From contig JANWWZ010000001.1 of the NCBI GenBank assembly GCA_025057115.1, forward strand, positions 62,001 to 126,000: a DNA stretch of 64,000 nucleotides, written 5' to 3'. Under the pieces are notes generated by a model. It had not been told where the DNA came from. It saw only the letters and a program-made list of their open reading frames with translations, and ran no database searches. Source of the DNA: Bernardetiaceae bacterium (lineage in GTDB: Bacteria > Bacteroidota > Bacteroidia > Cytophagales > Thermoflexibacteraceae). Positions 2,987-59,391 of the stretch are shown here, one piece after another (the first letter of the stretch is position 1; each line of letters opens with the position of its first letter). Both the position numbers and the translations under genes were made by a program.

Positions 2987-3129
2987 GTTAGTTTACTCTA
3001 CGAAATTGAAGCAAGATTGATAATTTGAAATGCTCTTTTGCAGCGTGTTTAGGTTTTAGAAGAGCAAAAATTGTGAATAAAACAGTTGGATAAAAGGGAG
3101 AGTCGGCTAACCTCTGGGAGCCAACTTAA

Positions 3130-3330
3130 CAGCGACATATGGTGGTGGATACACTTGGATTGCTACATGTAGTCATGGTTACAGGAGCCGAGGTAAAGGA
3201 TGCTCAATCAGAGCTGGAGCTGTTGCCTGTACTTGAAAATTACAGAACCTTACAACGAATTTCCCCTGATAAGGTGTATGTGGGAGAATTTCTCGAGTCC
3301 ATCGAATGGATAGATGAGAAGAAAAAATAG
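3130..3330 (+). pseudogene. IS5-type transposase relic
   Basis: The frame reads QRHMVVDTLGLLHVVMVTGA and then VKDAQSELELLP. This closely resembles the RH(L/M)xVDTxGLL segment around the first catalytic aspartate of IS5-group DDE transposases. A weaker match to the GYxGxxxEW block follows (YVGEFLESIEW). A stop at 3127-3129 cuts the frame just upstream, and neither the N-terminal third nor the last catalytic residue is present. I find no matching inverted ends. It is therefore a decayed internal fragment. The family assignment rests on short motifs and is moderate. Confidence 0.55.
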
Positions 3331-3760
3331 TACAAAAACCAGCATCTTCTCAGCTTTATTCATCAAAAGGACGGTGTTAGGTTGAGCGAAGGTTAAGGTA
3401 GAGCCAAGCCCCGCTTAGCTTAACTTAAGCCTAAGGCACGCTAGTCCAAACTGCCGTTACATTCATCAAGCTTGCTTTCATTAATATGAATTTGACAAAA
3501 TATGATCTTATAAAAAACTAGACGACCACTAAGTCTTGAGGTTCTTTTTGCAAATTGAATAATCGAGACGCACATTTAGTAGTTGCCTATATTTTTATAG
3601 TAGTTGCGTAACAAGTATGCAAGCGGTTAGCTTCAGGTTTATTTAAGTACAATACAGGTTGAGAGGGAAGTGCTCTAAAACTGCTACATCAAATGCTAAA
3701 GCGTTGTCCGACACGTTAGAAATTAAAGCCTAAAAAAATTATAACTTCGCAAAAAACAAC
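3331..3760 (+). other. Gene-free spacer before the Dam-type gene
   Basis: 430 bases between the transposase relic and the methyltransferase. No frame shows protein-like composition. TAGTTGC occurs twice at about 3579-3608, and short AT-rich tracts are present. TATAACTTCG just before the next gene resembles a -7 element but has no TTG at the proper distance. It is probably degraded accessory DNA. Confidence 0.5.
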
Positions 3761-13822: not shown

Positions 13823-15128
13823 AAACTTTGTGCCTATACTTTGCTTTTTTGTAGTGGTTTCTTGCCAACACCTAGTCAAGAAAAAGGAGAAAGAAGAAGA
13901 GACCTCTTCCAAGCCATTAGTAAATTACTTAGAAAATCAACTTCTTTCTCCAGCGCCTGCTGAACAAGTAGGCATGAGTACCCGTCGCCTGGCTTACATA
14001 GACACTTTTCTACTCAAGCGCCTGCAGAAACAACTTCTTCCTGGAGCGGTTTGCTTGGTAGCCCGAAAAGGAAAAATCGTGTACCACAAGGCATTCGGAT
14101 ATCGCAATCTAGCAAGTAGAATCCCTATGGAAAAAGACGATATTTTCCGCATTATGTCCATGACGAAGGCTATCACTTCCGTTGCTGTGATGATGTTGTT
14201 TGAAGAAGGACAGTTTCTGCTTCATGAACCCATTTCTAAATTTATCCCTGAGTTTAAAAATCCGAAAGTTCTCAAGCGGCTCATTCTTAACTCTAAAGAT
14301 ACTTCTTTTACTGCTGTAGCAGCCAAACAAGAAATTACCATTTGGCATTTGCTCACTCACACAGCAGGCATTCCATACAACCATCCTTTACAGCACAAGG
14401 CAGGTATTCCCCCATTTCATACTACTAAGCCACTTACTCTATCGCAAACTATTCCTAAACTAGCCCAATTGCCGCTGATGCATGAACCAGGTGAGCAATT
14501 TACTTACGGCTTAAGCACTGATGTACTAGGCTATTTGATAGAAAAAGTTTCAGGCATGACACTATCCGAATTTTTTACCAAGCGCATTTTTAAACCTTTA
14601 GGCATGCACGACACTTTTTTCTACGTACCTTCAGATAAAAAAGAACGCTTAGTAATGCTCTGTGAAGAAGTTGAAGGCAAGGTAATTCCCCATACCAATG
14701 CCGCTGAGTATGCTGATTACGCTACTGAAGGGGCACAAACCTACTACAGTGGCGGAGCAGGGTTGTGTAGCACGGCAGCAGACTATGCCAATTTTATGCA
14801 AATGCTCCTCAATGGAGGAAGGTACAACGGGGTGCAACTACTCAGCCGCAAAACCATTGAAATGATGACCCAAAATCAAATTGGCGAGCTCACTACCTGG
14901 CGCGGTACAAAATTTGGACTGGGATTTGAACTTTTAGAGAGAGAGCAAATCAGTCGAGTACCTGGCTCTGTAGGCGTTTTTCGATGGGACGGTATGTATT
15001 CTACTTTTTTCTGGATTGACCCTAAAGAAGAGCTTATTGCCGTTTTTATGTCCCAAGTGTGGCCTACCAGCCAGACAGACCTTGCACAGCGCGTGCAAAC
15101 CCTCGTCTATCAAGCAATAGTGGACTGA
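13815..15128 (+). CDS. Beta-lactamase-fold serine hydrolase, lipoprotein
   Basis: 437 residues from ATG 13815, which starts a lipoprotein signal (MAKNFVPILCFFVVVSC, Cys17). The domain matches the class C beta-lactamase/esterase family: nucleophile S115 and K118 in IMSMTKAITS, the second motif in FTYGLSTDVLGYLIEKVSG, GGAGLCSTAADYANFMQMLL, and a late WDGMYSTFFWIDP block. Such proteins are mostly D-amino acid peptidases, esterases or penicillin-binding relatives rather than true beta-lactamases. Its tail overlaps the convergent patatin gene by 19 bases. Confidence 0.88.
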   Translation: MAKNFVPILCFFVVVSCQHLVKKKEKEEETSSKPLVNYLENQLLSPAPAEQVGMSTRRLAYIDTFLLKRLQKQLLPGAVCLVARKGKIVYHKAFGYRNLASRIPMEKDDIFRIMSMTKAITSVAVMMLFEEGQFLLHEPISKFIPEFKNPKVLKRLILNSKDTSFTAVAAKQEITIWHLLTHTAGIPYNHPLQHKAGIPPFHTTKPLTLSQTIPKLAQLPLMHEPGEQFTYGLSTDVLGYLIEKVSGMTLSEFFTKRIFKPLGMHDTFFYVPSDKKERLVMLCEEVEGKVIPHTNAAEYADYATEGAQTYYSGGAGLCSTAADYANFMQMLLNGGRYNGVQLLSRKTIEMMTQNQIGELTTWRGTKFGLGFELLEREQISRVPGSVGVFRWDGMYSTFFWIDPKEELIAVFMSQVWPTSQTDLAQRVQTLVYQAIVD

Positions 15129-15892
15129 GAGCGGCATTTAAATACCTCTGTTAATACTTTGCGCGTATGGCGATAGCCTACTTCAAAAATTTCTCGTGCT
15201 TTGGCTACATCAAACACTTTATAAGCTGCCATTTCTGGCGGTTCTATAAACAAATGGCATAGCGGTTTGCGCGAAGCTATGTTAGCATTGATAATCAAAT
15301 GAAAAGTGCGCTCTATAACTTGTTTGAGGTTACTTACTTTTAGCTGACTTACTGCGTTAGAATGAATCCCAATGATGTAGCTACAATGCTCTAATAAAGG
15401 TTCAACAGGCAAGTTGTTCAAAATACCACCATCGATGAAATATCTTCCGTTAATTTCCACAGGCGCAAAAATTAATGGAATGCAAGAGGCAGCCTGAAGG
15501 GGTTTAATGAGCTCGCCACTGCTGAAAAAGACCGTCTCTCCTCGTTCTATATCCGTGGCATTGACAAAAAGACGTATTTTCAGGCTTTCAAAATTATCTT
15601 CAGCCAAAAAGAGTTTGAAGGCTTCTACGGTGGCATCTATTCGCAGCAGACCTGTAAAGTTCCCTGAGGGCTTGAAGTAACGCAGAATATTAGTTTTAGA
15701 AATAAATTCTAAAATTTCTCTAGGGCGATGACCAGCCGCATAAAGCGCTCCCACGATAGCACCTGCACTAGTGCCTGAAATGTAATGAGGGCGAATACCT
15801 ATTTCGTCAATAGCTTGTAAAGCACCTAAATGAGAAATACCGCGCGCTCCGCCGCCAGAAAGCACAATTCCAATTGTTTCCAGCATGTTCAT
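15110..15892 (-). CDS. Patatin-like phospholipase
   Basis: About 260 residues. It has a full Ser-Asp dyad: oxyanion loop GGGARG and nucleophile elbow GTSAG with the active serine, then the DGG motif in YFIDGGILNNLPVEPL. It should cleave acyl esters of phospholipids or other lipids in the cytoplasm or at the membrane. No membrane segment or beta-barrel follows, so this is the short RssA/YchK-like type. The start at 15892 (MNMLETIGIVLSGGG) fits the family better than the upstream ATG at 15919; 15886 is also possible. Upstream lies the palindrome array. Confidence 0.88.
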   Translation of the reverse strand: MNMLETIGIVLSGGGARGISHLGALQAIDEIGIRPHYISGTSAGAIVGALYAAGHRPREILEFISKTNILRYFKPSGNFTGLLRIDATVEAFKLFLAEDNFESLKIRLFVNATDIERGETVFFSSGELIKPLQAASCIPLIFAPVEINGRYFIDGGILNNLPVEPLLEHCSYIIGIHSNAVSQLKVSNLKQVIERTFHLIINANIASRKPLCHLFIEPPEMAAYKVFDVAKAREIFEVGYRHTRKVLTEVFKCRSQSTIA

Positions 15893-15950
15893 TTGCAAAT
15901 TTACCAGCCGAGATAGCAAAACACTTCTCGAACAAATGCAAAGTTTTAAC

Positions 15951-16012
15951 AGTGAGATGGAAAAATGCGTTCACAAAAGCGGAAAAATTTACCTTTAGGA
16001 TTGTTATTGCTA
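15951..16012 (+). repeat. Left 62-bp direct repeat bracketing the palindrome array
   Basis: It begins AGTGAGATGGAAAAATGCGT and matches 16945-17006 over 62 bases with 5 differences, all transitions. It borders the array on the patatin side. It contains no evident gene. Confidence 0.85.
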
Positions 16013-16022
16013 GCAGTCGCTT

Positions 16023-16190
16023 AGGTTTTTGTAAGGCTGTTTTTGCCATTGTTCGTGTCTTCACGAACAATGCGCTTTGTTTATGCCTTGGAAAACAACC
16101 TAGCAACATGGCGGCGAGCATTTTCTTCGGCTCATCCTTGCTTTTTGCGTTAATCACAAGTTGTTCGCAAGGACATAAACAACGGCAAGG
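16023..16190 (+). repeat. Long palindrome-paired unit, copy 1
   Basis: A 168-bp unit. An inverted palindrome at 16047-16072 and a direct palindrome at 16160-16183 bound an interior of about 87 bases. This copy is the most diverged (AACCTAGCAACATGG where the others read AGCTCATTAGTATGG). Confidence 0.85.
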
Positions 16191-16219
16191 GTTGTTCGCA
16201 AGGACATGAACAACGGCGA

Positions 16220-16387
16220 AGGTTTTTGTAAGGCTGTTTTTGCCATTGTTCGTGTCTTCACGAACAATGCGCTTTGTTTATGTCTTGGAAAACAGCTCAT
16301 TAGTATGGCGGCGAGCATTTTCTTCGGCTCATCCTTGCTTTTTGCGTTAATCACAAGTTGTTCGTGAGGACACGAACAACGGCAAGG
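16220..16387 (+). repeat. Long palindrome-paired unit, copy 2
   Basis: A 168-bp unit with palindromes at 16244-16269 (inverted) and 16357-16380 (direct, perfect arms). It is nearly identical to copy 3. Confidence 0.88.
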
Positions 16388-16475
16388 GTGAGGACATGAG
16401 CAACGGCGAATCAGCGTGTACTTGGTTGCGTTTTTGATCACAAACAGTTGTTCGTGGGGACACGAACAACGGCGA

Positions 16476-16644
16476 AGGTTTTTGTAAGGCTGTTTTTTGC
16501 CATTGTTCGTGTCTTCACGAACAATGCGCTTTGTTTATGCCTTGGAAAACAGCTCATTAGTATGGCGGCGAGCATTTTCTTCGGCTCATGCTCGCTTTTT
16601 GCGTTAATCACAAGTTGTTCGTGAGGACACGAACAACGGCAAGG
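16476..16644 (+). repeat. Long palindrome-paired unit, copy 3
   Basis: A 169-bp unit, one T longer than copy 2 in the run before the inverted palindrome (16501-16526). The direct palindrome is at 16614-16637. Confidence 0.88.
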
Positions 16645-16944
16645 GTTGTTCGCAAGGACATGAACAACGGCCAATCAGCGTGTACTTGCTTGCGTTTTTG
16701 ATCACAAACAGTTGTTCGCAAGGACACGAACAACGGCAAGGGTTGTTCGCAAGGACATGAACAACGGCGAATCAGCTTGTACTTGCTTGCGTTTTTAATC
16801 ACAAACAGTTGTTCGTGAGGACACGAACAACGGCAGGGGTGAGGACATGAGCAACGGCGAATCAGCGTGTACTTGGTTGCGTTTTTGATCACAAACAGTT
16901 GTTCGCAAGGACATGAACAACAGCAAGGACAAACAATGACAGGG

Positions 16945-17006
16945 AGTGAGATAGAAAAATGCGTTCACAAAAGCGGAAGAATTTACCTTCAGGATCGTTG
17001 TTGCTA
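16945..17006 (+). repeat. Right 62-bp direct repeat bracketing the palindrome array
   Basis: Partner of 15951-16012, same orientation, 57 of 62 bases identical. It ends 88 bases before the metF start codon. Confidence 0.85.
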
Positions 17007-17094: not shown

Positions 17095-18048
17095 GTGAAG
17101 GTTATTGAACACCTCAAGAATGCCCAATCTACCCTTTTTTCTTTGGAGATTATCCCGCCAGTAAAGGGGGAAAGCATTAAATCTATTTTTGATGCTCTCG
17201 ACCCATTGATGGAGTTTAAACCGCCTTTCGTAGATGTTACTTATCATCGAGAAGAGTATGTGTATAAAACAGGAGCGAATGGAGCTTTAGTGAGACAATT
17301 GGTGCGCAAGCGACCAGGCACAGTAGGCATTTGCGCTGCTATCATGCACCGCTACAAGGTAGATCCCGTTCCGCATATCATCTGTGGAGGGTTTAGTAAG
17401 GAAGAAACAGAAAATGCCTTGATCGACTTGCACTACTTAGGTGTAGAAAATATACTGGTGCTGCGTGGCGATGCAATGAAATCCGAAGGCATGTTTAAAC
17501 CCCACCCCGAAGGACATTCCCATGCTACTGATCTTTTAGCTCAAGTAGTGGCTATGAATCAGGGGCATTATCTGGACGAAGATTTAATTAACCCTACTCC
17601 TACTAACTTTTGCATCGGCGTGGCAGGCTATCCCGAAAAACATTTCGAGGCTCCTAACATGGCTTTCGACTTAAAATATTTGAAAATGAAAGCCGATATA
17701 GGAGCAGATTTTATTGTTACGCAAATGTTTTTCGACAATCAGAAGTACTACGACTTTGTAACTCGTTGTCGGGAAATGGGTATCCAACTGCCTATTATTC
17801 CTGGACTTAAACCATTGACTTCTAAAGCTCAACTTACTTCCTTACCCCGCACTTTTCACATCGACTTACCCGAAGAGTTGGTAAAGGAAGTGGAAAAATG
17901 CCAAAATAATCAGCAGGTAAAGCAAGTGGGAATTGAGTGGTGTATTTACCAGTCGAAAGAACTCATTAAGTTTGGAGTTCCTTGCCTGCACTACTACACC
18001 ATGAGCAAATCCGATCCAGTGCGGCAAGTGGCGGAAGCAGTGTTTTAA
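17095..18048 (+). CDS. metF: 5,10-methylenetetrahydrofolate reductase
   Basis: 317 residues. It reduces methylene-THF to methyl-THF with FAD and NAD(P)H, feeding methionine synthesis. Features of the TIM barrel are present: FSLEIIPPVKG (14-24) with the catalytic Glu, FVDVTYH, GICAAIMHRYKVDP, NILVLRGDA, FCIGVAGYPEKH, ADFIVTQMFFDNQKYYDF and IIPGLKPLT. The start is GTG at 17095; no better ATG precedes the family start. A TAACTTTG box at 17066-17073 could be a -7 element, but no TTG is correctly spaced. The 3' end overlaps comM by 4 bases. Confidence 0.96.
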   Translation: MKVIEHLKNAQSTLFSLEIIPPVKGESIKSIFDALDPLMEFKPPFVDVTYHREEYVYKTGANGALVRQLVRKRPGTVGICAAIMHRYKVDPVPHIICGGFSKEETENALIDLHYLGVENILVLRGDAMKSEGMFKPHPEGHSHATDLLAQVVAMNQGHYLDEDLINPTPTNFCIGVAGYPEKHFEAPNMAFDLKYLKMKADIGADFIVTQMFFDNQKYYDFVTRCREMGIQLPIIPGLKPLTSKAQLTSLPRTFHIDLPEELVKEVEKCQNNQQVKQVGIEWCIYQSKELIKFGVPCLHYYTMSKSDPVRQVAEAVF

Positions 18049-24436: not shown

Positions 24437-24872
24437 GGAAATTCAACCGTATTCAAGCTCTGATACTTCAAAAGAGCATTTGCATAGCCTTATAGCAATT
24501 TCATAAATTGCTTGCCAAACTAGCAAAACAAAAAAATATCTCTTTTTGCAACTAAGAGAGCTTTTTCTCTTTTCAAATGGTTGTAAGGACACAAACAACG
24601 GCGTGGGAGAAAAAGCGAAAATATTCAACTTTAACTGGATTGCTTGATACTAACCTTATCTTTAAACTCCAACTAAACGGGCGTTTTTGAGATCACGTGC
24701 AGGGGACTAAATGTTTTGTTGGACTAAAAAAAGGTCAGCAATCCTTTCCTGCTCTAAGCAGCCATGTCCTCTAAAATTTTCTTTACTTGTCGTTTATTGC
24801 TCTTGAACAGTTTTGAGCTGACGTAGAGTCCTATTAGTGCTTTAGCAAGACAAGTTTTCCGAGCAAAATATT
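24437..24872. other. Gene-poor spacer with hairpin, lone REP-like copy and possible coding relic
   Basis: 436 bases. AGCAATTT-CAT-AAATTGCT (24494-24512) is a perfect 8-bp hairpin. A lone derivative of the array palindrome lies at 24579-24603. On the minus strand, 24754-24891 stays open for 45 codons, ending ALIGLYVSSKLFKSNKRQ then VKKILEDMAA and a stop. It has no start and overlaps the end of the next gene, and looks like the tail of a lost protein, possibly a transposase. I cannot name it. Confidence 0.5.
24579..24603 (+). repeat. Lone degenerate copy of the array palindrome
   Basis: GGTTGTAAGGACACAAACAACGGCG matches the direct palindrome plus its GGCG flank, lacking four bases of the left arm. 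The nearest array copy is 7.7 kb away, so the element is dispersed, not confined to one array. Confidence 0.6.
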
Positions 24873-26807: not shown

Positions 26808-28205
26808 CTACATCGGTTTTTTCTTCGACAAACTTGCAGTCAGTACGGCTTCGCAAACTAGGTTGCCCGCCACAAAAGCTTGTCCTTTCATTTTGAAAAT
26901 GCCGCGTTTGATAGGCGCTGTTAGTTCACAGCGAATAACTAACGTATCCCCTGGCAATACTGGTTTTTTGAATCGGCATTCATCGATGCCAAGAAAATAA
27001 GTCCAGTAATCATGAGGATTATCCACAGTACTTAGTGCAAAAATCCCACCTGTTTGTGCCATAGCTTCAATTTGAAGCACGCCTGGCATGACGGGATTTC
27101 CTGGAAAGTGTCCTTGGAAAAAGGACTCATTCATGGTGAGATTTTTGACCCCCACTACAGATTTATCATCTAAGTAAATGATTTTATCAATGAGCAACAT
27201 GGGATAGCGATGGGGTAGTTTTTCCATGATTTGGTTGATATTCAAAATAGGAGTAGTGGCTGGGTCATAAACAGGGGCTTGGTCAGGTTGGATTTTTTTC
27301 ATTGCCCTTTTGATTTTTCGGGCAAAAGCTACGTTGGCGGCATGTCCAGGTCGGGCTGCTAAGATTTGGGCGCGGAGAGGTTTACCTACTAAGGCTAAAT
27401 CGCCCAGTAAGTCTAGCAATTTATGGCGAGCGGGCTCATTCTTGTAGCGCAACTCTATGTTGTTGAGTATGCCTTCTTGCTTGACTTCTACCTTGGGCTT
27501 GTTAAAAAGTCTCGCTAAATATTCTAATTCCTCCTCATTGACCATGCGGTCCACTATCACGATGGCATTATCCAGGTCGCCGCCTTTGATGAGGTTATTT
27601 TTGTGAAGCATTTCCAGTTCATGGAGGAAGCAAAAAGTGCGGCAAGGGGCTATTTCCTCGGCAAATTGGCTGATATCGTTGAGATAAGCATGCTGGCTGC
27701 CCAGTACGGGAGAGTTGTAGTCCACCATTACTGTAAGACGATAGTCGTTGAGTGGTAAGGCAGCAAGTTCTACGTTTCGTTCCGGCTCGGAGTAGAAAAT
27801 GCCTGTAGGCACGTCGAAAAAGTCACGCATGATGTTTTGTTCCTCCAGACCGGCTTGGCGCAAGGCTTCCACAAATTGCAAGGCACTGCCGTCCATAATA
27901 GGGGGTTCGGGTCCGTCGAGCTGGATGAGGATATTATCTATTTGCATTCCCACGACGGCAGCTAGGGTGTGCTCTACTGTGTGTATGCGCGCGCCGTTTT
28001 GTTCTAAAGTAGTTCCACGGGAAACATCTACTACTAAATCGGCATCTGCATCTACTGTAGGCATGCCTGGTAAATCGACGCGCTGAAACTTAATGCCATG
28101 TCCAGGACGGGCAGGTAAAAAAGTCATGGAAGAAGGAATTCCCGTATGCAAGCCAACTCCTGAAACTGTTACGGCTTTTTTGATAGTATGTTGTCTAGTT
28201 TCCAT
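26808..28205 (-). CDS. lpxC-fabZ: Bifunctional LpxC deacetylase / FabZ dehydratase fusion
   Basis: 465 residues. Residues 1 to about 300 are LpxC, the zinc enzyme that deacetylates UDP-3-O-acyl-GlcNAc: QHTIKKAVTVSGVGLHTG, HTVEHTLAAVVGMQID with a zinc His, and RHKLLDLLGDLALVG with the other ligands. Residues about 315-465 are FabZ, the 3-hydroxyacyl-ACP dehydratase: LPHRYPMLLIDKI, FFQGHFPGNPVMPGVLQIEA with the catalytic His and Glu. The fusion is characteristic of Bacteroidota and links control of lipid A and fatty acid synthesis. It lies 2 bases after lpxD. Confidence 0.97.
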   Translation of the reverse strand: METRQHTIKKAVTVSGVGLHTGIPSSMTFLPARPGHGIKFQRVDLPGMPTVDADADLVVDVSRGTTLEQNGARIHTVEHTLAAVVGMQIDNILIQLDGPEPPIMDGSALQFVEALRQAGLEEQNIMRDFFDVPTGIFYSEPERNVELAALPLNDYRLTVMVDYNSPVLGSQHAYLNDISQFAEEIAPCRTFCFLHELEMLHKNNLIKGGDLDNAIVIVDRMVNEEELEYLARLFNKPKVEVKQEGILNNIELRYKNEPARHKLLDLLGDLALVGKPLRAQILAARPGHAANVAFARKIKRAMKKIQPDQAPVYDPATTPILNINQIMEKLPHRYPMLLIDKIIYLDDKSVVGVKNLTMNESFFQGHFPGNPVMPGVLQIEAMAQTGGIFALSTVDNPHDYWTYFLGIDECRFKKPVLPGDTLVIRCELTAPIKRGIFKMKGQAFVAGNLVCEAVLTASLSKKKPM

Positions 28206-28207
28206 TG

Positions 28208-29254
28208 CTACTGCTTTGAATTGTTGGCAATTATTTTTTCAAGGGCATCAAGCCTTTTGGCTATTTCCGGCAGTCTTTTGAAGATGGCAAAAGACCGCAT
28301 AAAGTCTTTGATATCTAATACCGGGGAGCCTATAAGGGTTTGATTTTCTTCCTTAATGCTCTTGATCACACCTGCTTGGGCACCGATAGTGGTGCGATTG
28401 GCTACTTTTAAATGACCCGCAAAACCTACCTGACCTGCAATTACGCAATTGTTGCCAATTTCCGTAGAACCAGAAATACCCGTTAAGGCAGCAATCACCG
28501 TGTTTTTGCCAATTTTGACATTATGGGCTACCTGGATGAGGTTATCCAACTTGACCCCGCATTGGATAAGGGTTTCACCCATAGTAGCACGGTCTATGGT
28601 AGTGTTAGCACCAATGTCTACATTATCTTCAATGACGACGTTTCCCACTTGAGGCACTGCTATGTAAGTGCCATCTGCCTGAGGAGCAAATCCGAAACCA
28701 TCACTCCCAATAACTGCTCCTGCATGAATAGTGCAGTTATTTCCAATGACACAGTTGTGATAAATTTTTACCCCTGCGTATATGGTAGTATTATTGCCAA
28801 TGGTGGTATTGTCTCCAATGTACACATGGGGATACACTTTTGTATTGTCGCCGATTTTAACATTTTGTCCTATGTAAGCAAAAGCTCCTATGTAAACATT
28901 TTCTCCTATAGAAGCGGAAGCGGCAATATAACAAGGTTGCTCTATGCCAGCCTTGACTTCTGAAGATTGGGTAAGTTTATTATACTCTCCCAGTAATTTA
29001 CTGAAGGCTACGTAGGCGTCTTCTACGCGAATGAGCGTAGCATTAATTTTCTTTCTAGGTACGAAGTCTTTATTGACAATAATAGCCGCTGCTTGGGTGG
29101 TGTAGGCATAAGGTTCGTAGAGCATGTTGGCTAAAAATACAATGTCAGTAGGGGAGGCTTCTTGTATCTTAGCTAATCCTTTGATGAGGCGCTGGCTGTC
29201 ACCCTCTATTTCTCCATTAAGTAACGCGGCTACCTGCTGTACGGTAAACTCCAT
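28208..29254 (-). CDS. lpxD: UDP-3-O-acylglucosamine N-acyltransferase
   Basis: 348 residues. Third step of lipid A synthesis, N-acylating UDP-3-O-acyl-glucosamine. The N-terminal uridine-binding domain (1-100) is followed by a long hexapeptide beta-helix; the catalytic His is in NLIQVAHNVKIGKNT. GSDGFGFAP and TTIDRATMG are family signatures. A TATCTTTG box (plus CAAAGATA, 29297-29304) inside the end of the HD gene could give an internal start, but no spaced TTG is seen. Confidence 0.96.
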   Translation of the reverse strand: MEFTVQQVAALLNGEIEGDSQRLIKGLAKIQEASPTDIVFLANMLYEPYAYTTQAAAIIVNKDFVPRKKINATLIRVEDAYVAFSKLLGEYNKLTQSSEVKAGIEQPCYIAASASIGENVYIGAFAYIGQNVKIGDNTKVYPHVYIGDNTTIGNNTTIYAGVKIYHNCVIGNNCTIHAGAVIGSDGFGFAPQADGTYIAVPQVGNVVIEDNVDIGANTTIDRATMGETLIQCGVKLDNLIQVAHNVKIGKNTVIAALTGISGSTEIGNNCVIAGQVGFAGHLKVANRTTIGAQAGVIKSIKEENQTLIGSPVLDIKDFMRSFAIFKRLPEIAKRLDALEKIIANNSKQ

Positions 29255-57439: not shown

Positions 57440-58483
57440 TTAATGTTCTTCGCTAAAGCGTTTATCAGTGAGAAATTCTTCATCAGTGAGCGTTTTTAAG
57501 AAAGCAATGATAAGTCGCTTTTCTTCCGCTGTCATGGGGATGCCGCGTTTACCATCAGGTCGGCGGAAGATAGAATCCAAAGTAGGAATATCTGCCATAC
57601 CTTCTGAATAGTGGTCTAACACCATTTCTAAATTGCGAAATCTTCCATCGTGCATATAAGGACGAGTTACTTCTACATTGCGCAAGCTAGGCACGCGAAA
57701 TTTGTATTTATCTTGCTCATTGAGGGTTATTTCGTACCTTCCCAAGTCTTGGTTAAACTCAAGGCTAAGCCCATTGTTGCGATAACTTTGGTCAGTAAAT
57801 AGGGCACCAGCATGGCATTTATCGCAACCTTTTTCCTTAAAAAGTTGCAAGCCGCGCAGTTCATCGCTGGTGAGTTGTATTTGGCCGCGCAAATACTTGT
57901 CGTAGCGCGAGTTAGCGGAAATCATCACTACCATGAATTGGGAAAGTGCTTTCAATAGCCGCTCTCCTGTAATTTCTGGGGTTCCGAAAGCTCGTTGGAA
58001 CATAGGAGGGTATTTTGGATTGCGGCGAAGTTTTTCCAAGACATTAGGCAGGGACTCGTCCATTTCTACGGGGTTTTCAATTGGAGCAAGTGGCTGTAAA
58101 TCAAGGTCGTGAATGCCTCCATCCCACATGAAATCGCTAAGAAAAGCCATGTTTTGTATAGGCAAGGCATTGCGTTTGCCCAGTCGGTCATCTACTCCGT
58201 GGCTGAGGTCATGCCCGTGATGGGTAAAGCCTGCACTCTGTTGGTGACAAAACCCGCAACTTACCATGCCATCACGTGAGAGTTGTCCTTCGTAGAAAAG
58301 GGCTTTTCCTAGTTCAAACCCAGCTTGAGTAACGGGGTTTTTCTGTAGGTCATACACCATAGGAGGGAAATAGGGAGGTACTTGCACTTCTATTGCTGGG
58401 TTGATGTCGCCTTGTTTGCAGGAAATACTTACTGATATTGCAAATACAACACTTGCAATGGTAAAAATTGTAAGTTTTTTCAT
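57440..58483 (-). CDS. MauG/MbnH-type di-haem peroxidase, lipoprotein
   Basis: 347 residues. Lipoprotein signal (Cys22). Two haem c motifs: CGFCH at 76-80 and CDKCH in EKGCDKCHAGALF. Between them are QNMAFLSDFMWDGGIH and RNVEVTRPYMHDGRFRNL as in cytochrome c peroxidases. In methanotrophs MbnH of this family oxidises a Trp of MbnP to kynurenine for copper binding; here the gene lies next to an MbnP-type gene, so the same pairing is likely. Substrate identity is inferred. Confidence 0.9.
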   Translation of the reverse strand: MKKLTIFTIASVVFAISVSISCKQGDINPAIEVQVPPYFPPMVYDLQKNPVTQAGFELGKALFYEGQLSRDGMVSCGFCHQQSAGFTHHGHDLSHGVDDRLGKRNALPIQNMAFLSDFMWDGGIHDLDLQPLAPIENPVEMDESLPNVLEKLRRNPKYPPMFQRAFGTPEITGERLLKALSQFMVVMISANSRYDKYLRGQIQLTSDELRGLQLFKEKGCDKCHAGALFTDQSYRNNGLSLEFNQDLGRYEITLNEQDKYKFRVPSLRNVEVTRPYMHDGRFRNLEMVLDHYSEGMADIPTLDSIFRRPDGKRGIPMTAEEKRLIIAFLKTLTDEEFLTDKRFSEEH

Positions 58484-58509
58484 CGGAATTTAGATTTGAT
58501 TTTTTATTT

Positions 58510-58541
58510 AGCCCAGCAGGTTCAATAATATCTGCTGGGCT
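58510..58541 (-). promoter_or_regulatory. Stem-loop between the MbnP and peroxidase genes
   Basis: AGCCCAGCAG and CTGCTGGGCT form a perfect 10-bp stem with a 12-base loop, just after the MbnP stop. On the minus strand it is followed by A-rich rather than T-rich sequence, so a processing or attenuation hairpin is more likely than a full terminator. Confidence 0.55.
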
Positions 58542-58551
58542 TAAGCAAATT

Positions 58552-59391
58552 TTAACGCGATGCAACAGTGTGCATATGATGATACTCAAACATGTGCTGG
58601 TAATTGTTAGCTACGTTTACCGAGAAAGGCGAGAACATCACAGTTGGATTTTGTGCAAGGCTAATAGTGTTAGGTCCATTAAACACCTTGAGCACGTCGG
58701 CAATGATGTGCATTTGCGGAGTGCTTTTGCTGCGTACTTTAGCTACATCGCGTTTAAAGGATAGTTCAATTTTCTTGATGTTGTTAATGGTTCGCACTGG
58801 GGGATTGCCGAATCCTCCGCCAAAGCCGCCGATGTGATAGCGGAAGCGGCGATTTCCAGCGGGATCAGGAGCAATTTGTGGCGAAGTGCCTTCTAAGCGC
58901 AAAAAAATGTATCCCGAATTCCACGTCCAATACATGCCTTCTTCGCGGGTCATGTCGGTAGGGTTGAGCACACCTTGCCTGCGGCTAATATCCATCGTAC
59001 TGCGAAGGCTATCTACACCCAGAATAAAGGAAACTCCTATGTAATCTCCTTGTGGGACGCTCAAGCGAATAACATGAGTATCAGGCACGTGTTCGCGCAC
59101 AAGAAAATAGCTTGAATCCTGAGGAACTACGTATTCTGTTCCATCTGCCTTTTTGAGGCGAATGTTACTTACGTAGTATAGCAACTGAGTAACAGTAAAG
59201 TCCTCCCCAGCCGCATTTCGGTACACGCCTCGGTTGAGTTCAAGGTCGCGCGTGCCTACTACGTTGTCAAACTCTAGCAAAATAAATCCTCTTTTTGAAG
59301 GATCAAACTCGGGTTGTACTTCTTTGTGGCAAGAAATTGACAAAGAAGCAAAGCTTATTAAAAGTATGTTGAAAATTTTGTTTGTCTTCAT
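58552..59391 (-). CDS. MbnP-family copper-binding-type lipoprotein
   Basis: 279 residues. Lipoprotein signal (SLSISC, Cys21). The MbnP domain is clear: FDNVVGTRDLELNRGVYRNA, LLYYVSNIRLKKADGTEYVV, and MYWTWNSGYIFLRLEG with the paired Trp residues. The C-terminus has YQHMFEYHHMHTVASR, a His/Met-rich tail well suited to metals. In Methylosinus-type systems MbnP binds copper after MbnH oxidises a Trp. Here the MbnH-type gene is immediately downstream. The metal is inferred, not shown. Confidence 0.88.
   Translation of the reverse strand: MKTNKIFNILLISFASLSISCHKEVQPEFDPSKRGFILLEFDNVVGTRDLELNRGVYRNAAGEDFTVTQLLYYVSNIRLKKADGTEYVVPQDSSYFLVREHVPDTHVIRLSVPQGDYIGVSFILGVDSLRSTMDISRRQGVLNPTDMTREEGMYWTWNSGYIFLRLEGTSPQIAPDPAGNRRFRYHIGGFGGGFGNPPVRTINNIKKIELSFKRDVAKVRSKSTPQMHIIADVLKVFNGPNTISLAQNPTVMFSPFSVNVANNYQHMFEYHHMHTVASR

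Follow-up and report, generated by a model that had tools for sequence, protein, structure and literature searches.

The window, i.e., the whole stretch of 64,000 nucleotides that was analyzed, carries an array of palindromes between a patatin-like gene on the minus strand and a methylenetetrahydrofolate reductase gene on the plus strand (Table 1). All 13 palindromes reported in the initial annotation were found, between positions 16048 and 16921 and with up to four mismatches allowed, 3 of them inverted and 10 direct, and its three long units, each with an inverted and a direct hairpin, were borne out. The interior of these units is present as well, with a length of 88 rather than about 87 bases. 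The flank GGCAA, said to be kept beside both orientations, held in its first three bases, with GGC after the right arm in 12 of the 13 copies, whereas the continuation varies (mostly GGCAA or GGCGA) and the last copy reads AGC. The 24-base core with up to three mismatches occurs at 12 places in the window and at none in 100 shuffles of it. Inside the array the tandem units are of varying period. The fold check suggested by the same annotation gave a clear result, since the long unit at 16240-16417 folds far better than its shuffles, both as RNA (z of -6.0) and as DNA (z of -6.8). A single degenerate hairpin of the same family, with four mismatches, lies at 24573-24609, and a comparison of the whole window with Rfam at the gathering threshold returned only two tRNAs. 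The ends of the array, 15951 and 17006, are the outer edges of two 62-bp direct repeats with 57 of 62 identical positions. These repeats, which are absent from the text of the initial annotation, turn out to be the key feature of the array.

Table 1. Features of the array, its neighbor genes and the IS5-family relic in the window
Feature	Position	Strand	Remarks
Decayed IS5-family relic	3042..3533	+	leader sequence, inverted, at right end (~3489-3533)
Patatin-like phospholipase gene, left neighbor	15110..15919	-	PF01734; first TTG start as listed
Left copy of 62-bp direct repeat (target duplication)	15951..16012	+	57/62 identical to 16945-17006; abuts element
Leader, 35 bp, akin to the terminus of the decayed IS5-family element	16013..16047	+	target ...GCTA before it; score 14.5
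Hairpin A' (inverted), long unit 1	16048..16071	-	core match
Interior, 88 bases, long unit 1	16072..16159	+	
Hairpin B, long unit 1	16160..16183	+	4 mismatches
Hairpin B	16191..16214	+	core match
Hairpin A' (inverted), long unit 2	16245..16268	-	core match
Interior, 88 bases, long unit 2	16269..16356	+	
Hairpin B, long unit 2	16357..16380	+	exact core
Hairpin B	16447..16470	+	core match
Hairpin A' (inverted), long unit 3	16502..16525	-	core match
Interior, 88 bases, long unit 3	16526..16613	+	
Hairpin B, long unit 3	16614..16637	+	exact core
Hairpin B	16645..16668	+	core match
Hairpin B	16711..16734	+	core match
Hairpin B	16742..16765	+	core match
Hairpin B	16808..16831	+	exact core
Hairpin B, last full copy	16898..16921	+	core match
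Degenerate half unit, ...AATGACAGGG at 3' junction	16922..16944	+	by eye
Right copy of 62-bp direct repeat (target duplication)	16945..17006	+	compared with 15951-16012
Methylenetetrahydrofolate reductase gene, right neighbor	17095..18048	+	PF02219; GTG start as listed

A search of the 2,995,891-base draft genome (86 contigs) with the core pattern TGTTCGTGNNNNCACGAACA and up to two mismatches yielded 147 occurrences, and the reversed pattern, used as a control in the same genome, yielded none. The array is accordingly one of a dispersed family; the 147 cores fall in about 40 clusters, and 140 matching pieces were obtained with the whole array as a query. From 35 genome stretches with clusters, 43 intervals were delimited by homology among the arrays. 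Five of these, shorter than about 140 bp, were omitted from the survey of neighbor genes and from the all-against-all comparison of flanks, and L133 was added to the latter. The copies lie mostly between genes, a point that the initial annotation had proposed for checking, and the 33 intervals of at least 140 bp with frames on both sides have neighbors in the orientations ++ or -- (16), +- (11), and -+ (6). Frames of 111 to 201 codons that traverse 11 arrays look like read-through of the repeats. At L035 (3912-4126), the array is traversed by a 477-codon frame (first start, as listed), and intergenic placement is not certain there. Since five intervals end at a contig end, the arrays seem to break the assembly. 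The 4435-base contig C25 (L061) has one array inside and another at its far end, and the stretch that separates the two arrays holds open reading frames of 479 and 271 codons.

In a set of 59 genomes, composed of this one and 58 relatives, a search with up to one mismatch found the core in 10, i.e., this genome with 108 matches, the congener G002 with 20, G004 with 8, and seven further genomes with 1 or 2 each, and there are none in the congeners G001 and G003. A scan of one genome per species, from which this genome was possibly omitted, returned 24 stretches whose titles all point to Bacteroidota, with Bernardetiaceae or Cytophagales named in 13, Algoriphagus in 3, Arcicella in 1, and others in 7. 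The congeners, 65 to 72% identical, lack collinearity at the single locus compared. In other genomes the hairpins have a conserved GTGNNGACAC centre and a stem altered on both sides, and 44 of 74 occurrences also retain the GGC tag; at L097, L098, and L078 of relatives, the same centre and tag are combined with quite different yet paired stems. Stem position 1 is paired in 36 of 40 arm pairs from other genomes versus 18.6 after shuffling (six loci duplicating G002 omitted), and the 35 distinct arm pairs of this genome, half units included, show little excess of pairing. In other Bacteroidota, hairpins of the same centre were seen by eye at L079 (2950-3350) and L111 (1200-1560), seemingly within open reading frames and in frame.

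The BIME-like build of paired palindromes in both orientations, to which the initial annotation had drawn attention, is confirmed. Together with an unpaired tag and many, mostly intergenic, copies, this build would suit REP/BIME elements moved by a RAYT (Y1) transposase, the mobilization that had been assumed, but the distribution of the enzyme makes it very improbable. PF01797 has no match in this genome (G000) or in the only repeat-bearing congener, G002, in a search that very remote relatives could escape, and one match in G001, which lacks the repeat. The same search was positive for 38 of the 59 genomes and for 5 of 14 control genomes, including E. coli. The hairpins scanned at six RAYT loci from relatives (L066 to L071, out of the 38 genomes with a match) are unlike this family. 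Insertion of single strands by Y1 enzymes is not expected to produce long target duplications. Moreover, the tag of the palindrome is GGC and not GTAG or CGTC, the REP tag classes treated together with RAYTs in a portion of PMC3733652.

For each array, the two flanks were compared by local score, with 1500 control positions. A score of at least 13 was reached by 15 of 29 arrays with at least two hairpins, 2 of 6 single-hairpin places, and 37 of the 1500 controls; a score of at least 40 was reached by 8, 1, and 13 of them, respectively. About half of the tested arrays are bracketed by direct repeats of about 28 to 190 bp, whose lengths (identical positions in parentheses) are 62 (57) in the window, 28 (25) at L032, 35 (29) at L033, 76 (72) at L038, 28 (25) at L040, 55 (41) at the right element of L042, 35 (28) at L044, 190/180 (167) at L045, 74/76 (62) and 75 (64) for the two repeats of L046, 89/88 (82) at L047, 91/89 (87) at L051, 47/46 (45) at L059, 55 (49) at L060, 53 (51) at L061, and 28 (23) at L063. 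A 23-bp repeat at L047:3864-3886, set apart from its array, was not counted as a target duplication. Most repeats adjoin the element, with a larger distance in a few; from the leader to the edge of the duplication there are 4 bases in L032 and 29 in L044. The copies of each duplication have diverged to about 75 to 98% identity, which disfavors overlaps of the assembly.

These flank repeats look like target duplications, because some of them copy gene ends and because two inverted arrays have swapped theirs. At L060, ychF ends within one copy (its PF06071 match extends to residue 365 of 366), and an orphan duplicate of this 3' end stands on the far side of the array. In three further arrays, L045, L059, and L038, the two copies contain ends of different neighbors, one each (frames from the first start codon). 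The swap emerged from an all-against-all comparison of 73 flanks from 39 arrays, 34 of which have two flanks. Opposite-direction matches of at least 34 were found within the same array in 10 of the 34 two-flank arrays, and 18 of the 34 lack a repeat of at least 16, with L041 and L042 counted as having one; with the sequence windows of the single-array comparison, the scores of L033 and L040 are 20 and 19. The sole cross-array matches of at least 34 join the left flanks of L041 and L042 (130/133) and their right flanks (59/63), which adds two duplications of 133 and 63 bp. L042 (4083-4938) and L041 (3843-4365) are both located on contig C2, with the arrays at 27,582-28,437 and 58,342-58,864, and, with one of them reversed, they align with each other at 90% over as many as 396 bases. 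Such a reciprocal exchange of flanks is consistent with recombination between the two arrays, pointing to a putative inversion of about 30 kb. Apart from this exchange, each duplication is particular to its site.

The initial annotation had named two observations that would speak for a local expansion rather than a mobile family, namely, a core confined to the array and the lack of a Y1 transposase. No such transposase was found, but the core recurs 147 times across the genome. Tandem expansion on the spot without mobility would readily explain the internal tandem units of varying period; against some 40 clusters of cores and site-specific duplications, those of L041 and L042 apart, it can practically be dismissed.

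Many arrays start with a leader of about 35 bp, a homolog of which terminates a decayed element of the IS5 family; this element has 30 matching pieces in this genome, including the one in the window. The best match of the relic peptide is NCBIfam NF033580 (IS5 family transposase; E value of 1.9e-5, 24.4 bits, below the cut-off of 110), and Pfam returned nothing for it. In this genome, NF033580 has two matches, both with stops and both below the cut-off, PF01609 has none, and no intact IS5-type transposase was found in the draft assembly. A leader consensus derived from the relics scored at least 13 in 16 and at least 15 in 13 of the 43 intervals (better of two ends each), with a background of 8 in 2000 single windows at 15 or more; the leaders of the window and of L059 score only 14.5 and 12.5. 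The mean similarity of 13 array leaders to five relic termini is 20.2, compared with a mean of 8.6 and a maximum of 10.6 for shuffles. A strict leader pattern occurs at seven places in this genome and nowhere in G001 to G003. The relic peptide has no match in these three congeners either. Alignment revealed a diverged leader beside a hairpin at L104 of G002, and a leader-like stretch at L088 of the same genome (about 3298-3359) adjoins neither a hairpin nor a recognizable transposase.

The edges of leader and duplication coincide within one base in the window, at L038, and for two elements of L046, as well as at L059 by eye. Of the 10 leader arrays flanked by a duplication, 9 have a TA among the final three bases of the target on the leader side (background of 0.123, P of 5.6e-8), and in 7 of these 9 both duplication copies contain it; the opposite junction has such a TA in none of 8 cases (L041 and L042 not included). 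One end of the hairpin element seems to derive from a transposable element that is now defunct. A SINE-type retroelement inserted by target-primed reverse transcription would likewise combine a structured and rather constant 3' end with a 5' end of greater variability, and its target duplications would vary, but a leader homologous to the terminus of a DNA transposon and the lack of any match to RVT_1 (PF00078) in all four genomes of the genus, this one included, render it extremely improbable.

At the end opposite the leader, nearly all duplication-flanked cases show the right arm of a hairpin, GGC, and a few, mostly purine, bases. The unpaired GGC on the 3' side of the palindrome is present at 126 of 149 occurrences. 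In a full copy, about 180 bp long, the leader of about 35 bp is followed by an inverted hairpin, the interior of about 88 bases, a direct hairpin, and finally GGCRRG. The leader end alone is IS-like, and no second IS-derived terminus was recognized. A GC target preference at the hairpin junction had been suspected by eye and was not borne out (6 of 16 versus a background of 0.48).

Long, variable duplications at the insert might also have been generated without a transposase if the hairpins provoked template switching, i.e., if a stalled nascent strand copied an array elsewhere and returned upstream of its starting point. The strong folding of the long unit would agree with this scenario, as would duplications in arrays without a recognized leader (8 of 16, with the non-abutting 23-bp repeat omitted). 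Yet the insert ends are non-random, with the start of the leader on one side and the hairpin with GGC on the other, 9 of 10 leader junctions have the TA target, and neither junction has an excess of microhomology over shuffled pairing (16 loci, P of 0.72 and 0.38), and we regard template switching as rather unlikely. Alternatively, two-ended DDE transposition could by itself make long variable direct repeats. There is a precedent in IS1549 and IS1634, with variable direct repeats of 8 to 514 bp, for which no mechanistic model was proposed according to the available part of a 2008 study of the IS4 family (PMC2266710). A second end might be provided by the right hairpin arm, which, read inward (GCCGTTGTT), resembles by eye the starts of some leaders (GCAGTTGTT in L128). 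But seven relics examined lack long repeats, the target motif is confined to one junction, and PF01609 is without a match in this genome, all of which makes two-ended transposition distinctly improbable.

The combination of long direct repeats with an IS5-type terminus argues for a route other than RAYT. On balance, we lean toward the array being one insertion of a dispersed, non-autonomous hairpin element that was moved by IS5-type one-ended transposition, an inferred mechanism. The leader end would have been joined to a TTA-like target by a transposase of the IS5 family that is no longer intact in this genome. The opposite end, hairpin plus GGC and devoid of a recognizable IS end, would have been fixed upstream through synthesis or repair by the host, at no set distance (tens to nearly 200 bp), whereby the stretch between would be duplicated. 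Surviving insertions would be those whose duplication leaves both neighbor genes whole. Many copies then grew internally by tandem hairpin units of about 21 to 33 bp, and the arrays may afterwards have served as sites of recombination and of assembly breaks. Several points count against one-ended IS5-type transposition, namely, the missing intact transposase, relics without a long duplication, duplication-flanked arrays without a recognized leader, arrays without repeats, the leader offsets in L032 and L044, the solitary leader-like stretch at L088 of G002, and the lack of duplications in G002. Indeed, copies from other genomes (L072 to L115, G002 included) show no convincing flank duplication, the best score being 13.0 for a 13-base match in G004. 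Arrays without a leader and arrays without repeats fall outside the explanation; loss, decay, or a hairpin-to-hairpin variant are possible.

Several known systems share features with the hairpin family. As in BIMEs and REPINs, there are short palindromes with an unpaired tag, pairs in opposite orientation, tandem arrays, and many, mostly intergenic, copies, but the family differs by its GGC tag instead of GTAG or CGTC, its long target duplications, its one IS5-family-like end, and the fact that no Y1 transposase was found. IS5-derived MITEs are likewise small and non-coding, with a terminus homologous to an IS and a TA-containing target. IS5 target duplications are short, a few bases, in contrast to about 28 to 190 bp in those arrays that have one, although the remaining arrays may carry short ones, and only one IS terminus was recognized here, the other end being a hairpin with GGC. 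The enzyme of IS801 and IS91 is of the rolling-circle type. One-ended transposition of IS801 also combines one genuine IS end with a second end elsewhere, a tetranucleotide resembling the wild-type end, whereas a long target duplication is not mentioned in the accessible section of the report (PMC3189936). The long direct repeats of variable length at insertions are shared with IS1549 and IS1634, IS4-related ISs as described in the part of PMC2266710 cited above, which are, however, autonomous, unlike the non-autonomous, hairpin-based family with its IS5-type terminus. Mitochondrial hairpin elements, including double ones, are potentially mobile and intergenic as well, but they are organellar, and those of Allomyces are without flanking duplications, as stated in an excerpt of PMC2800124. 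A description of the hairpin family itself was not found in the portions of the literature reached by our search.

Bacterial transposition rarely yields long, variable target duplications, and 18 insertions of different ages in a single genome (16 plus the 2 of L041 and L042) constitute a natural series with readable junctions. Tentatively, and with considerable doubt, they may even reflect a distinct route, in which an IS5-type DDE transposase would join a single terminus to TTA-like targets while the end with hairpin and GGC would be placed freely up to about 190 bp away by replication, giving rise to long variable duplications and to a hairpin family that spares the genes of a compact genome. 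If true, this route would serve as a worked model of how the long, unexplained repeats of IS1549 and IS1634 could arise. The hairpin family suggests that palindrome arrays can spread without a RAYT enzyme, and that insertions can spare both neighbor genes by way of duplicated ends and be followed by recombination between arrays.
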